Below the pieces are notes generated by a model, which was not told the origin of the DNA, did not search any database, and saw only the letters and a program-made list of their open reading frames with translations. From NCBI GenBank assembly GCA_017621815.1, contig JAGASK010000011.1, positions 1 to 64,000 on the forward strand: a stretch of 64,000 nt of DNA, read 5' to 3'. The translations under genes and the position numbers were made by a program. The stretch comes from Lachnospiraceae bacterium (GTDB taxonomy: Bacteria > Bacillota > Clostridia > Lachnospirales > Lachnospiraceae). Position 1 is the stretch's first letter, and the number at the start of each line of letters is the position of its first letter. Below, in pieces: positions 57,422 to 62,822 of this stretch.

Positions 57422-59484
57422 TGGGAAAAAATTTATTTATAGCGGAAAAGCCCAGCGTTGCAAGGGAATTTGCCAAGGCGCTGCAACTGAATACAAGCAG
57501 CAGAGACGGATATATTGAGTCAAAAGAAGCGATCGTAACATGGTGTGTAGGACATCTGGTAACAATGAGTTATCCGGAAGCCTATGATGAGAAATATAAA
57601 AGATGGTCTCTTGATACGATACCCTTTATACCGGAAGAATTTAAGTATGAAGTGATTGAGAATGTCAAAAAACAATTCCAGATTGTAAGCGGTCTTTTGA
57701 ACCGTTCTGATGTGGAAACCATATATGTTTGTACCGACTCCGGGCGTGAAGGAGAATATATTTATCGTCTTGTTGAAAAGCAGGCAGGGGTAAAAGGTAA
57801 AAAAAGAAGGAGAGTATGGATAGATTCCCAGACAGAAGAAGAAATAAAACGGGGTATCAGGGAAGCAAAGGATTTGTCGGAATATGATAATCTCTGCGCT
57901 GCCGCATACCTCAGGGCAAAAGAAGATTATCTTATGGGAATTAATTTTTCAAGGGTACTTACATTAAAGTATGGAAATAATATAAAAGCTTATCTGAAAA
58001 CAGATAAAGCCGTAATATCCGTGGGGCGTGTTATGACCTGCGTTCTGGGAATGGTAGTGAACAGGGAAAGAGAAATCAGGGAGTTTGTTAAAACTCCTTT
58101 TTATCGTGTCCTTATGCAGGAACAAATCAGCGGAAGAAACTTTGACTGCGAATGGAAGGCTGTGGAAAATACCAGATATTATAATTCGCCCCTTCTTTAT
58201 AAGGAAAATGGGTTTAAGGAAAAAGAAAGCGCACAGGCTTTGATTGATTTCCTGAAAGAAGCGCCGGAAGAACCGGCGGTTATCGAATCCATAGAAAAGA
58301 AAAAAGAAACGAAAAATCCGCCGCTTTTATATAATCTGGCGGAACTCCAGAACGATTGCTCAAAATATTTTAAAATAAGCCCGGATGAAACACTTCGCAT
58401 AGCCCAAGAGCTTTATGAAAAGAAAATGACCACTTATCCGAGAACCGATGCCAGGGTGCTTTCGACTGCAGTTTCCAAAGAAATTTATAAGAATATAAAA
58501 GGACTTACCAATTATGAGGTTGTAAGAGAAGCCGCGTCACAGGTGCTTGATTCAGGAAGTTATAAGAACATTGCCAAAACACGATATGTAAATGACAAGC
58601 AGATTACAGACCATTATGCCATTATACCTACGGGACAGGGATTTGGTAATTTGAATTCCTTAAATCCCACATCGGCTAAGGTATATGAAATTATCGTAAG
58701 ACGATTTTTAAGTATTTTTTATCCTCCTGCCATTTACCGGAAGGTGGGGCTTGGACTTTCTGTAAAAGGAGAGCGTTTTTTTGCTAATTTTAAGGTGCTG
58801 GAGGAAGAAGGATATCTTAAGGTGAGCAGTTTTTCCTTTGCCAGGAAAAAAAATGAGAGCGGGGAAGCGGAAGAAAAAGCAGATGCCGGGGCGGCTTTGG
58901 AAAACCGTGGAACAGATGAACGGGAAGTTCAGGAGGAAGAAGAAACCGGCGTAGACAAAAATTTTATGGAGGTGCTCGGTACACTGAAGAAGGGAACAAC
59001 GCTTCCTCTTGGTGAGCTTATTATTAAGGAGGGAGAGACCTCACCGCCCAAACGTTATAATTCAGGAACCATGATTCTTACCATGGAAAATGCAGGACAG
59101 TTTATTGAGGATGAGGAACTGCGTGCCCAGATTAAAGGAAGCGGAATCGGAACCAGCGCTACCCGTGCGGAAATTTTGAAAAAACTGATAAATATCAAGT
59201 ATCTGGCACTGAATAAAAAAACGCAGATTATTACGCCTACTTTAATGGGTGAGATGATTTATGAGGTAGTCAATAACTCAATCAGGCCGCTTCTTGACCC
59301 TGCGCTTACTGCCAGCTGGGAAAAAGGTTTGACTATGGTGGCAGAAGGGACTATAACAGAAGAAGAATATATGAAAAAACTGGATGATTTTGTATCACGA
59401 AGAACCAATATAGTGAAGCAGTTAAACAATCAGTCCGTTTTAAACAGGCAGTTTAATGAAGCTGCCAGGAATTATAAAAAGTAA
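57421..59484 (+). CDS. topB: DNA topoisomerase III
   Basis: 687 residues; ATG 57421 shares a base with the previous TAA (translational coupling). The TOPRIM domain starts NLFIAEKPSVAREFAKALQL with VCTDSGREGEYIYRLV, and the catalytic Tyr is in KKMTTYPRTDARVLS. RAKEDYLMGINFSRVLT and GSGIGTSATRAEILKKL are further type IA hallmarks. An acidic insert (about residues 478-520, rich in Glu) lies in the region that precedes the last domain, and there are no C-terminal zinc fingers. It decatenates and relaxes DNA by single-strand passage. Confidence 0.95.
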   Translation: MGKNLFIAEKPSVAREFAKALQLNTSSRDGYIESKEAIVTWCVGHLVTMSYPEAYDEKYKRWSLDTIPFIPEEFKYEVIENVKKQFQIVSGLLNRSDVETIYVCTDSGREGEYIYRLVEKQAGVKGKKRRRVWIDSQTEEEIKRGIREAKDLSEYDNLCAAAYLRAKEDYLMGINFSRVLTLKYGNNIKAYLKTDKAVISVGRVMTCVLGMVVNREREIREFVKTPFYRVLMQEQISGRNFDCEWKAVENTRYYNSPLLYKENGFKEKESAQALIDFLKEAPEEPAVIESIEKKKETKNPPLLYNLAELQNDCSKYFKISPDETLRIAQELYEKKMTTYPRTDARVLSTAVSKEIYKNIKGLTNYEVVREAASQVLDSGSYKNIAKTRYVNDKQITDHYAIIPTGQGFGNLNSLNPTSAKVYEIIVRRFLSIFYPPAIYRKVGLGLSVKGERFFANFKVLEEEGYLKVSSFSFARKKNESGEAEEKADAGAALENRGTDEREVQEEEETGVDKNFMEVLGTLKKGTTLPLGELIIKEGETSPPKRYNSGTMILTMENAGQFIEDEELRAQIKGSGIGTSATRAEILKKLINIKYLALNKKTQIITPTLMGEMIYEVVNNSIRPLLDPALTASWEKGLTMVAEGTITEEEYMKKLDDFVSRRTNIVKQLNNQSVLNRQFNEAARNYKK

Positions 59485-59494
59485 GGAGAAAAAA

Positions 59495-60160
59495 ATGGAG
59501 CAGTATAAAATCAGTAATCTTTATAATCTGGAAGAGACAATTGCATCGGAGCTGCTGGCGCAGGCGGAATTTCCCTGGGAGGTTTTACCGAAAATCAGCG
59601 GGTTTATTCTTGAACTGGGCAGTAAGCTGTCAAAGGATAAATTTACAGAGGTAAAAGAAAATGTATGGATAGCAAACTCTGCAAAAGTAGCCCCCACTGC
59701 CTGCATAAACGGTCCGGCTATTATTGATGAAGAAGCTGAAGTGCGCCACTGCGCATTTATCAGAGGGAATGCCATTGTGGGAAAGGGAGCTGTAGTGGGA
59801 AATTCCACAGAGCTTAAGAATGTAATTCTTTTTAATAAGGTTCAGGTGCCTCATTATAATTATGTGGGAGACAGCATTCTCGGATTTAAGGCACATATGG
59901 GTGCAGGTTCCATTACCTCCAATGTAAAAAGCGACAAAACGCTGGTAGTAGTTAAAAACGGAGAGGAAAAAGTGGAAACGGGACTGAAAAAATTCGGCGC
60001 CATGCTGGGAGACAACGTGGAAGTGGGATGCAACAGCGTCTTAAATCCCGGTACGGTAATCGGCAGAAATTCCAATATTTATCCCACCTCCATGGTCCGC
60101 GGCTGCATTCCGGAGGGCAGTATTTATAAGAAGCAGGGAGAAATCGCCAAAAAGCATTAA
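59495..60160 (+). CDS. Left-handed beta-helix (hexapeptide) transferase-like protein
   Basis: ATG 59495 follows TAAGGAG; the frame continues upstream into topB. 221 residues. A helical N-terminus (EQYKISNLYNLEETIASELL) is followed by hexapeptide repeats across about 65-215 (VAPTACINGPAIIDEEAEVR, IVGKGAVVGNSTELKNVILF, HMGAGSITSNVKSDK, AMLGDNVEVGCNSVLNPGTV). This is the fold of the acyltransferase part of GlmU-like and UDP-GlcNAc pyrophosphorylase-related proteins, but no nucleotidyltransferase domain is present. Substrate unknown. It is ten bases after topB. Confidence 0.85.
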   Translation: MEQYKISNLYNLEETIASELLAQAEFPWEVLPKISGFILELGSKLSKDKFTEVKENVWIANSAKVAPTACINGPAIIDEEAEVRHCAFIRGNAIVGKGAVVGNSTELKNVILFNKVQVPHYNYVGDSILGFKAHMGAGSITSNVKSDKTLVVVKNGEEKVETGLKKFGAMLGDNVEVGCNSVLNPGTVIGRNSNIYPTSMVRGCIPEGSIYKKQGEIAKKH

Positions 60161-60205
60161 TTTTTTGTCAAAAATACTGGATTTTTTACCTGAGTTATGA
60201 GAAAA

Positions 60206-60211
60206 TATAAT
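60206..60211 (+). promoter_or_regulatory. Possible -10 element ahead of the NifU-like gene
   Basis: TATAAT at 60206-60211 with a weak TTTTTA 17 bases upstream. It lies 105 bases before the start codon and about 50 bases ahead of the inverted repeat at 60259-60281. Confidence 0.4.
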
Positions 60212-60258
60212 GCGGTAGAGAATGCAGTGTTTTTTGCCGTATGTATGTATCAGTAAAG

Positions 60259-60281
60259 TTAACAAAATTTATTTTTGTTAA
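60259..60281. promoter_or_regulatory. Inverted repeat in the NifU-like gene leader
   Basis: TTAACAAAA (60259-60267) and TTTTGTTAA (60273-60281) are perfect 9-base arms around TTTAT. It could be an operator or a leader hairpin. Half-sites resemble Rex motifs but in the reverse orientation, so I do not call it a Rex site. Confidence 0.5.
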
Positions 60282-60315
60282 TAAATAATATCTACATATT
60301 GAAAGGAGTTTTCAC

Positions 60316-61008
60316 ATGATTTATTCAAAAGAAGTTGAAGAAATGTGTACAGTAGCACAGGGTGTTCATCATGGCTGTGCGCCGATTCCCGAAGAAGCAA
60401 AATGGGTTCAGGCTAAAAAAGTAGAAGACATTTCAGGTTTTACACATGGTGTAGGCTGGTGTGCGCCTCAGCAGGGTGCCTGCAAGTTATCTCTGAATGT
60501 TAAAGATGGTATTATACAGGAAGCGCTGGTTGAGACCATCGGATGTTCAGGTATGACACATTCCGCAGCTATGGCTGCAGAAATTCTTCCCGGATTAACT
60601 GTTATGGAAGCATTAAATACTGACCTTGTATGTGATGCTATCAATACAGCTATGAGAGAGTTGTTCTTACAGATTGTATACGGACGTTCCCAGAGTGCAT
60701 TTTCAGAAGACGGACTTGCTATTGGTGCCGGTCTTGAAGACCTTGGTAAAGGACTTAGAAGCCAGGTTGGTACTATGTACGGTACATTAAAGAAAGGTCC
60801 CCGTTATCTGGAAATGGCAGAAGGCTATGTAACAGGTATTGCACTTGATGCTGATGATGAGATTATCGGTTACAAGTTCATTAACTTTGGTAAGATGACA
60901 GACTTCATGAAGAAGGGTGATGATCCTGCAACTGCATATGAGAAGGCATGCGGACAGTATGGCCGTGTAGATGATGCTGTTAGAATCATCGACCCGAGAA
61001 AAGAATAA
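60316..61008 (+). CDS. NifU/IscU-like iron-sulfur scaffold-type protein
   Basis: 230 residues from ATG 60316 (GAAAGGAG ahead). The protein has cysteines in HHGCAPIPEE, GVGWCAPQQGACKLSL, VETIGCSGMTHSAAMAAEI, TDLVCDAIN and KACGQYG. The block ETIGCSGMTHSA followed by a helix resembles the IscU/NifU N-terminal fold, but the spacing of the ligands is not that of classical IscU. No signal peptide. Codon use (many GGT, GCA, CTT and AAG) suggests strong expression. It is cotranscribed with the GGGtGRT gene 17 bases downstream, a pairing I associate with Clostridia. Exact role unknown. Confidence 0.75.
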   Translation: MIYSKEVEEMCTVAQGVHHGCAPIPEEAKWVQAKKVEDISGFTHGVGWCAPQQGACKLSLNVKDGIIQEALVETIGCSGMTHSAAMAAEILPGLTVMEALNTDLVCDAINTAMRELFLQIVYGRSQSAFSEDGLAIGAGLEDLGKGLRSQVGTMYGTLKKGPRYLEMAEGYVTGIALDADDEIIGYKFINFGKMTDFMKKGDDPATAYEKACGQYGRVDDAVRIIDPRKE

Positions 61009-61024
61009 TAGGAGGAATGATAAA

Positions 61025-62035
61025 ATGGCATTATTTGAATCATATGAAAGAAGAATTGATAAAATCACTTCTGTTTTAAACTCTTACGGCATTTCTTCTA
61101 TTGAAGAGGCTGAAAAAATTACAAAGGATGCTGGACTTAACGTATATGATCAGGTTAAGAAAATTCAGCCCATTTGTTTTGAAAATGCTTGCTGGGCTTA
61201 CACAGTAGGTGCAGCAATTGCTATTAAGAAAAACTGCAGAAAGGCTTCTGAAGCTGCAGCAGCAATCGGCGAAGGCCTTCAGTCCTTCTGTATTCCCGGT
61301 TCCGTAGCTGATACACGTAAAGTTGGACTTGGACATGGTAATCTTGGCAAAATGCTTCTGGAAGAAGATACAGACTGTTTTGCATTCCTTGCAGGTCATG
61401 AATCCTTTGCAGCAGCTGAAGGCGCTATCGGTATCGCAGAGAAAGCTAACAAGGTTCGTCAGAAACCCCTTCGTGTTATTCTGAACGGTCTTGGAAAAGA
61501 TGCAGCTAAGATTATCTCCAGAATTAACGGATTCACATTTGTTGAAACAGAGTATGATCCTTATACCAATACAGTTAAGGAAGTATATCGCAAATCTTAT
61601 TCAGACGGACTTCGTTCCAAAGTTAACTGCTATGGTGCAAACTCCGTTCCTGAAGGTGTTGCAATCATGTGGAAAGAAAATGTAGATGTTTCCATTACAG
61701 GTAACTCTACCAACCCCACCAGATTCCAGCATCCTGTTGCAGGTACTTACAAGAAGGAAAGAACAGAAGCCGGAAAGAAATATTTCTCAGTTGCATCAGG
61801 CGGCGGTACAGGACGTACACTTCATCCTGATAACATGGCTGCAGGTCCTGCTTCCTATGGTTTCACAGATACATTAGGACGTATGCATTCCGACGCACAG
61901 TTCGCAGGTTCTTCATCCGTTCCTGCCCATGTTGAAATGATGGGTCTGATTGGTATGGGTAATAACCCCATGGTAGGCGCTACCGTAGCAGTAGCAGTAG
62001 CTATCCAGGAAGCAGCCGACGCTGGTAAATTCTAA
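61025..62035 (+). CDS. GGGtGRT family protein
   Basis: ATG 61025 follows AGGAGGAATG; 336 residues. The family-naming motif is intact in ASGGGTGRTLHPDNMAAG, followed by YGFTDTLGRMHSDAQFAG and a very conserved C-terminus (SSSVPAHVEMMGLIGMGNNP). Upstream parts include IQPICFENACWAYTVGAAIA and FLAGHESFAAAEGAIGIAEK, a pattern of alternating strands and glycine loops that suggests a nucleotide- or cofactor-binding enzyme. No function is established for the family to my knowledge. Operon with the NifU-like gene hints at an iron-sulfur or redox role. Codon use suggests high expression; a strong terminator follows. Confidence 0.88.
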   Translation: MALFESYERRIDKITSVLNSYGISSIEEAEKITKDAGLNVYDQVKKIQPICFENACWAYTVGAAIAIKKNCRKASEAAAAIGEGLQSFCIPGSVADTRKVGLGHGNLGKMLLEEDTDCFAFLAGHESFAAAEGAIGIAEKANKVRQKPLRVILNGLGKDAAKIISRINGFTFVETEYDPYTNTVKEVYRKSYSDGLRSKVNCYGANSVPEGVAIMWKENVDVSITGNSTNPTRFQHPVAGTYKKERTEAGKKYFSVASGGGTGRTLHPDNMAAGPASYGFTDTLGRMHSDAQFAGSSSVPAHVEMMGLIGMGNNPMVGATVAVAVAIQEAADAGKF

Positions 62036-62043
62036 AAATATTG

Positions 62044-62090
62044 CGATAGAAAGAACGTTTTGTAAGTTTTCTGTTGTTGTGAATGATAAG
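62044..62090. repeat. Dispersed hairpin repeat, degraded copy D
   Basis: GATAGAAAG, a changed loop, then TTTTCTGTTGTTG and ATGATAA align with copies B and C. The stem is weakened and the loop altered, so this is a diverged member. Confidence 0.45.
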
Positions 62091-62130
62091 AGATGTTTTC
62101 ATGCTTTTTGTGAAACATCTCTTATTTAAT
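62086..62130 (+). terminator. Terminator after the GGGtGRT gene
   Basis: ATAAGAGATGTTT (62086-62098) and AAACATCTCTTAT (62113-62125) pair perfectly over 13 bases, followed by a T-containing tail. Confidence 0.75.
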
Positions 62131-62210
62131 GTAGACATTTTTTTATTATTATCTTACAATATTAACAAAATACTTTGGATATTATCCATTTTAAAGAAAA
62201 GGAAGAAAAA

Positions 62211-62822
62211 ATGAGCGAAGAAAACAGTGTAGTTTATTGCAGCCAGTGTGGCAGTGTGAATCCCGATACTTTTAAATTCTGCAGTAATTGCGGAGCAAAG
62301 CTTGAGCAGGCACAGGATGAAAGCTCTTCTTTTGAAAAAGAGGAACAGCCGGTATTCAGCGGCGGGGAGCCTGTAACACCTGTTTATGAGAAGGTGGAGG
62401 CTGAGGTTGTCAGTGAAGGAAAGGTACCGGTTCAGGAAGAGATTAATATTAATTACGGAGCTGAGGAGGGAGCATATTCTTCCGGTGATTTTAATACACA
62501 GACGCCCCGGTATTATTCAGCACCTGATTCTTCAAATACAGGAATGAGCCAGACAAACGGTAATATTGGATTTGCCATTGCATCTATGGTATGCGGTATT
62601 CTGTCTATTGTATGCTGCTGTTTATCCACCTTCAGCCTTGTACTTGGCATCGCGGCTGTGGTACTTGGAATTATTTCCCTGAATGGGAAATATGATGGTA
62701 AAGGTATGGCTGTCGCAGGCATTATTACCGGCGGAATTGGTATTGCTATTTGGATTATATTTATCATTATCGGCGGGGCAGGATTATTTACTGGAATGGT
62801 TGATGAATTGTACAATTTCTAA
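62211..62822 (+). CDS. Zinc-ribbon membrane protein (DUF4190-like)
   Basis: ATG 62211 is preferred (AAAGGAAG ahead); the frame is open from 62175. 203 residues. The N-terminal zinc ribbon is CSQCGSVNPDTFKFCSNCG (CxxC-x10-CxxC). An acidic, low-complexity linker runs to about residue 120. The C-terminal DUF4190-like part has two membrane segments (about 125-155 and 170-200) with GIAAVVLGIISLNGK between them. Topology places the zinc ribbon in the cytosol. Function unknown. It begins a run of small membrane proteins. Confidence 0.8.
   Translation: MSEENSVVYCSQCGSVNPDTFKFCSNCGAKLEQAQDESSSFEKEEQPVFSGGEPVTPVYEKVEAEVVSEGKVPVQEEININYGAEEGAYSSGDFNTQTPRYYSAPDSSNTGMSQTNGNIGFAIASMVCGILSIVCCCLSTFSLVLGIAAVVLGIISLNGKYDGKGMAVAGIITGGIGIAIWIIFIIIGGAGLFTGMVDELYNF

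Follow-up and report, generated by a model that had tools for sequence, protein, structure and literature searches.

We describe a two-gene unit in a 64,000-nucleotide stretch of DNA from a Lachnospiraceae bacterium (positions 1 to 64,000, forward strand, of contig JAGASK010000011.1, assembly GCA_017621815.1; the whole stretch is hereafter called the window). The unit consists of a gene for a NifU/IscU-like protein (NIF) followed by one for a protein of the GGGtGRT family (GGG). Pairing of the two genes is near-obligate in the genomes searched, and in relatives from three phyla a fluoride riboswitch (crcB RNA, RF01734) heads the pair. This apparent link with fluoride, read from sequence, is new here. 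The two genes are as follows.

60316..61008, plus strand: NIF, a 230-residue NifU/IscU-like protein, identified by its open reading frame (ORF), the NifU_N profile and its predicted fold
61025..62035, plus strand: GGG, a 336-residue GGGtGRT protein (PF14057; expect value (E) 4e-189; structure model with predicted local distance difference test (pLDDT) 79.3 and predicted template modelling score (pTM) 0.83)

The genes are consecutive, as in the two-gene operon proposed in the initial annotation, and lie close together; the gap between the NIF stop (61008) and the GGG ATG is 16 bases and not 17. The GGG start is placed at 61025, where the family alignment begins; the ORF listing has a longer frame from 60971.

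Pairing of the two genes

Among 200 genomes of the same family, GGG was matched in 164, NIF in 163 and both in 162 (the overlap coming from tables compared by hand), which leaves three genomes with a single gene. The corresponding numbers for 293 genomes of the class are 149, 148 and 147, again with three single-gene genomes. Fisher p values for co-occurrence are 1.7e-35 (family) and 2.2e-81 (class), computed over related genomes that are not independent. The family exceptions (GGG only in G199 and G315, NIF only in G156) are probably partial, because all three matches are weak for the set. In the class, GGG was found alone in G590, as a weak match in two pieces, and in G596, where just 9 bases of contig remain beyond it in the direction in which NIF is expected; NIF was found alone in G532, where the match starts at base 5 of its contig.

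The physical arrangement is equally regular. With 149 listed coordinates per gene, own genome excluded, NIF and GGG are neighbours, at most 186 bases apart, in 139 of the 139 genomes present on both lists. In 148 of 150 best-match loci (the window being counted twice), NIF precedes GGG on the same strand, and the other two have just 46 and 40 bases of contig ahead of GGG. The pairing is near-obligate, which strongly supports a dedicated two-gene unit; the dedicated pair of the initial annotation survives this adjacency count, since the genes were not found apart in most genomes.

Two loci carry an ORF between the genes: one of 63 amino acids, annotated as hypothetical, in Parabacteroides (L148, 5800-5991), and one of 137 amino acids in L047. 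The pair's GGG is rare in the sample of the phylum, where it was matched in 4 of 119 genomes including the window's own. The search for relatives of the pair also found copies in the phage collection, and a search of E. coli with the Vibrio pair gave no match. Matches from gut bacteria in the plasmid collection may be chromosomal pieces labelled as plasmids.

Fluoride riboswitches ahead of the pair

RF01734 stands directly ahead of NIF in seven loci (L146, L226, L227, L187, L188, L217 and L218) and ahead of the pair, with other genes between, in L175, L190 and L147; a sub-threshold match occupies such a position in L192. Ten of the 62 genomes in the class of G084 have a PF14057 match, that of G611 being a 30-position fragment. 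The remaining nine hold 10 full copies of GGG (two in G625), of which four are headed by a riboswitch above the Rfam gathering score. The switch is immediately ahead of NIF in L187 (G614) and L188 (G630); the order is riboswitch-TauE-NIF-GGG-crcB-crcB-DUF190 in L175 (G084) and riboswitch-crcB-DUF190-MFS-NIF-GGG in L190 (G627). The sub-threshold match (25.2 bits; gathering score 34) precedes crcB-NIF-GGG in L192 (G625), and no riboswitch was found with the other five full copies of that class (G609, the second in G625, G618, G632 and G633). In the window's own class, riboswitches lie 97 bases (G350) and 107 bases (G518) before NIF, that is, in two of the 148 genomes with NIF, positions having been matched by eye; in G518 the GGG gene is fragmented.

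Ten records of the plasmid collection contain GGG, and eight of them (all except H8 and H15) were examined for riboswitches. Two from Vibrio, which share an identical GGG protein, scored 60.7 and 60.7 bits, and two from Persicobacter 50.1 and 49.9 bits. The riboswitch is directly before NIF in three of these records, and in P. psychrovividus it precedes a gene for a CLC-type channel that lies 466 bases ahead of the pair. No riboswitch was found in the Parabacteroides, Collinsella, Subdoligranulum and B. finegoldii records.

In the window's own family, riboswitch matches occur in 48 of 200 genomes, and comparison by eye found none beside the pair (the NIF position in G156 was not listed). The window has no RF01734 match in 59000-62500, and none up to E 10 in 59900-60400. 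The genome-wide scans used strict filters, with which weak riboswitches are lost. The window's genome has a weak match of 22.6 bits (gathering score 34) at a site distant from the pair (G000:C21:31098-31157).

Direct adjacency of riboswitch and NIF was observed twice per sample, against chance expectations of 0.0009 and at most about 0.004. In a tree of 29 GGG sequences the G084-type copies group in a single clade (support 0.999), together with the copy of G609 and the second of G625, for which no riboswitch was found, and G350 falls in a separate branch (0.998 with L002). Because the linked copies sit in separate branches, the link arose or moved on more than one occasion. Genomes G084, G614, G627 and G350 have a single GGG match each, the copy headed by the riboswitch.

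Some relatives of the pair thus resemble known fluoride-riboswitch operons (CrcB/Fluc, CLC-F, DUF190, enolase, pyrophosphatase) both in being headed by the switch and in sharing an operon with CrcB, DUF190 and transporters, whereas the window lacks a fluoride riboswitch. Literature searches, whose coverage did not extend to the Baker 2012 riboswitch paper, turned up no fluoride link of NIF-GGG.

The IscU-like protein

All 150 distinct NIF sequences compared share three invariant cysteines, spaced C49-x27-C77-x28-C106 in the window's protein; the non-classical ligand spacing noted in the initial annotation is real. Their codons are:

60460..60462, plus strand: Cys49, in the beta1-beta2 loop
60544..60546, plus strand: Cys77, aligned with the second IscU ligand
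60631..60633, plus strand: Cys106, at the start of helix 107-122; its equivalence to the third IscU ligand is suggested by structure-comparison offsets

An IscU-like fold is predicted for residues 38-130. The protein also shares with the IscU/NifU N-domain scaffolds a YSxxV start and TxGC around the second cysteine, but it differs from them in several respects. It scores 19.4 bits against NifU_N (PF01592), under the cut-off of 22, and falls short of NCBIfam TIGR01999 (20.3 versus 192.4) and TIGR03419 (24.2 versus 187.9). It is probably shorter by about 14-16 residues between ligands 2 and 3, has a C-terminal extension of about 100 residues without a match, and is nearly always paired with GGG. 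The counterpart of the first ligand is ambiguous: one alignment pairs it with C49 and another puts it at Q53. NIF also differs from the Zn-type scaffold/transferase SufU (6jzv, 5xt5): it scores 16.9 against TIGR01994, far under the cut-off of 92.5, and no sufS lies beside the pair in the window.

In IscU, the Asp of CGD and the His before the third Cys are associated with cluster lability and release. NIF lacks both; at the aligned or probable positions it has P51 and V105 (each 150 of 150), so that Asp and His appear to be replaced by Pro and Val. A putative iron-sulfur (Fe-S) nature of NIF is supported by the IscU-like predicted fold, the three invariant cysteines and published iron-dependent expression. 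The Fe-S or redox system proposed in the initial annotation is supported in part, strongly as a two-gene unit and, as to its putative Fe-S character, by these features of NIF.

A canonical NifU_N scaffold gene (167 bits) lies elsewhere in the genome (L170, G000:C22:9121-9486), and NIF is therefore additional to it. That gene is flanked by a class-V aminotransferase gene of the cysteine-desulfurase type and an MnmA-type gene, a trio that we read as IscS, IscU and MnmA. An internal duplication of NIF, its second half resembling its first, was considered and rejected: 83 of 200 shuffles scored equally, and hhalign gave no significant result.

The GGGtGRT protein

GGG matches PF14057 with 627.9 bits (cut-off 27) over 327 of 327 profile positions; it is a full member of the GGGtGRT family, as the initial annotation had it, and shows no difference from it. 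The family motif is located at:

61799..61819, plus strand: GGGTGRT, residues 259-265, within the highly conserved loop 258-304

Structures were modelled as single chains of NIF and GGG, and in the GGG model the loop is of low confidence. The aligned family sequences contain no invariant cysteine, and no solved structural relative of GGG was found. Polar and free of cysteine, the conserved loop looks more like a substrate site than a carrier. The earlier proposal of cluster loading from NIF to GGG is not supported, since no cysteine of GGG is invariant and the Asp and His tied to release are missing from NIF.

Published expression

What follows on published work refers to the covered passages of each cited paper. 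Without iron, BT0173-74 of B. thetaiotaomicron drop 11 to 12.8-fold (PMC10434189). In C. pasteurianum (F502_05012/05017), GGG is up with iron 7.1-fold early and 2.2-fold late, as are two NIF spots, one 3.7 and 2.9-fold and the other 2.4 and 1.6-fold (PMC5395762, Table 2). GGGtGRT proteins are reported to be highly expressed in chicken-gut anaerobes though poorly characterised (PMC11204068). In the rumen, GGGtGRT and NifU names both shift with feeding (PMC7035244), and abundance tables include a nitrogen-fixing protein NifU (PMC6043501); judged by name, these rumen NifU entries would be NIF. A virulence-prediction program flags GGGtGRt (PMC9942572), and a GGGtGRT and a NifU-N protein are lower in colorectal-cancer stool (PMC13041051), in both cases with no function given in the passages covered.

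The pair was called an undescribed system in the initial annotation. Both families are already named, the GGGtGRT name carrying no function, and published tables already contain the pair (BT0173-74; F502_05012/05017), so that the description holds for function only: the covered passages of PMC10434189, PMC5395762, PMC9942572, PMC7035244, PMC11204068 and PMC13041051 give none for GGGtGRT, and those of PMC6043501, PMC7671984, PMC13423590, PMC6205161, PMC5886521, PMC6311696, PMC11139923, PMC7266159 and PMC5533749 none for the pair.

Expression signals in the window

Ribosome sites are clear on both genes (AAAGGAG ahead of NIF, AGGAGG ahead of GGG), in agreement with the initial annotation, and so is the codon bias it described. 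GGG, computed on the longer frame of 354 codons that starts at 60971, has an effective number of codons of 38.8 and ranks first among the 49 window ORFs of at least 150 amino acids; NIF, at 42.3, ranks third. Both values are in line with high expression. Other signals are:

60206..60211, plus strand: TATAAT, probable -10 of the pair's promoter (part of TGAGAAAATATAAT), from upstream pattern comparison
60259..60281, no strand: perfect 9-5-9 inverted repeat TTAACAAAA-TTTAT-TTTTGTTAA, between promoter and ribosome site, a possible operator
62085..62126, plus strand: hairpin 3' of GGG, probable transcript end (-17.2 kcal/mol, z -4.21)

Of 134 regions upstream of the pair, 63 contain an element like TGTGAGAAAATA at no more than two mismatches (block shuffles, 3.6), and the window's upstream region matches TGNGANAATA with zero mismatches. 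The inverted repeat of the initial annotation is perfect in the window but is not a conserved feature; TTAACAA-N9-TTGTTAA at up to two mismatches occurs in one of 134 upstream regions, the window's own, and we rejected it as a family-wide operator. As for the shared terminator, the hairpin is strong, but the mechanical terminator scan did not flag it and no clean T run follows.

The upstream regions were scanned with consensus patterns for Rex, Fnr, Fur and PerR. Rex-like boxes (TTGTTAANNNNTTAACAA) at up to three mismatches occur in 28 of 134 upstream regions, against 12 in DNA farther upstream and 5.5 in shuffles; at up to two mismatches the near and far counts are 7 and 7 (shuffles, 0.8). 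Many are at a similar spot, about -50 to -65 upstream of NIF, roughly the place of the window's inverted repeat, and the window's best box has five mismatches. These boxes hint at redox control in some relatives, a lead and no more; a Rex motif of similar kind appears in PMC5886521. PerR-like patterns are in slight excess upstream of the pair, and Fnr- and Fur-like patterns show no excess there.

Neighbouring genes and fluoride islands

Beyond the pair, 85 loci were compared, many of them one-sided or short. The most frequent neighbours are a gene for a hexapeptide-repeat protein, in 27 loci, and one for a topoisomerase, in 24; both also adjoin the window's pair. No conserved third gene was seen, the top shared cluster reaching 27 of 85 loci (rarer clusters were left unannotated). 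In Collinsella (L149), sufB-sufD-sufS-sufU are followed by a transposase gene and then the pair.

Islands with several riboswitches exist, with 12 matches in G614 and eight in G630. L187, L188 and L217 each have, close to the pair, two tandem MutS-domain genes that follow a separate fluoride riboswitch (in L217 one just under the gathering score); by this recurrence they are a putative core of fluoride islands. The L187 island also contains an enolase gene and a DUF190-like gene (L187:12070-13882) and a ChrB_N protein, to which an ORF in L189 is similar. The TauE-type protein of L175 and the MFS-type transporters of L187, L189 and L190 are possible fluoride or anion transporters. Behind another fluoride riboswitch, a GGG fragment (L196:1795-2079) lies between DUF190 and an IlvD-type dehydratase, and in L200 (1434-2318) an IlvD-type gene follows a riboswitch; an Fe-S dehydratase might thus be a further member of the fluoride regulon.

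Possible functions of the pair

Our tentative preference is for a two-protein Fe-S module that would give a fluoride-tolerant step or otherwise relieve fluoride damage. Held more loosely still is a specific form of it, an undescribed fluoride-tolerance module in which an IscU-fold Fe-S subunit and a GGGtGRT enzyme might let cells bypass a blocked Mg-dependent step by a route insensitive to fluoride. NIF and GGG would act as one functional unit, presumably in a complex. NIF would hold an Fe-S cluster on its three cysteines and would probably keep it, because the Asp and His tied to lability are lost. GGG would be the catalytic partner, with a helical N-terminal part, a Rossmann-like alpha/beta domain and the long conserved loop (GGGTGRT), whose Gly, Ser, Thr, Asn, Arg and His residues could suit an anionic substrate. 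Together they may perform a step that is normally Mg-dependent and blocked by fluoride, or relieve fluoride damage in another way; iron dependence and the Fe-S fold suggest chemistry not reliant on Mg. Gut and rumen anaerobes would keep the unit on (in the gut, when iron is plentiful), and marine and environmental bacteria would induce it by the fluoride riboswitch.

Alternatively, though we think it rather unlikely, the pair may serve cluster handling or repair, NIF storing or carrying Fe-S clusters with GGG as partner or release factor, and be induced by fluoride because fluoride stress upsets metal homeostasis and damages Fe-S enzymes. The fold and invariant cysteines of NIF, the iron-dependent expression, the Collinsella locus near suf genes and the metal-ion and oxidative effects of fluoride reviewed in PMC11139923 are all consistent with this. 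However, the genome already has its canonical scaffold gene (167 bits), the commonest neighbours are not Fe-S assembly genes, and the invariant loop of GGG resembles a substrate site more than a carrier.

It is less probable again that GGG is a fluoride-sensitive metalloenzyme whose dose is raised under fluoride. Riboswitch operons carry, beside exporters, genes for enolase, pyrophosphatase and phosphoglycerate mutase (PMC5533749, PMC11139923); enolase and pyrophosphatase are inhibited by fluoride, and the operons hold extra copies of them (same sources). An enolase gene does share the L187 island. Yet the four genomes listed above have no GGG match other than the switched one, so that the pair seems wanted mainly under fluoride and dedicated relief or bypass is likelier than an extra copy of a housekeeping target; moreover, PF14057 finds no match in 52 of the 62 genomes of G084's class. 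Least probable is that the pair, with an unrelated redox job and no role in fluoride, rides on mobile fluoride islands. In favour of this, islands with several riboswitches exist, the link is absent from most relatives examined and the Rex-like boxes hint at redox control. Against it, seven loci have the riboswitch immediately ahead of NIF, and copies from distinct branches of the GGG tree, as well as those of Vibrio and Persicobacter, share this arrangement.

The riboswitch ahead of the pair supplies a concrete, testable condition, fluoride, under which its function can be sought. If the pair does provide a fluoride-tolerant metabolic step, it would represent a new type of resistance beside export and target over-production, would be relevant to organofluorine bioremediation, and would show the IscU fold turned into a stable working subunit.
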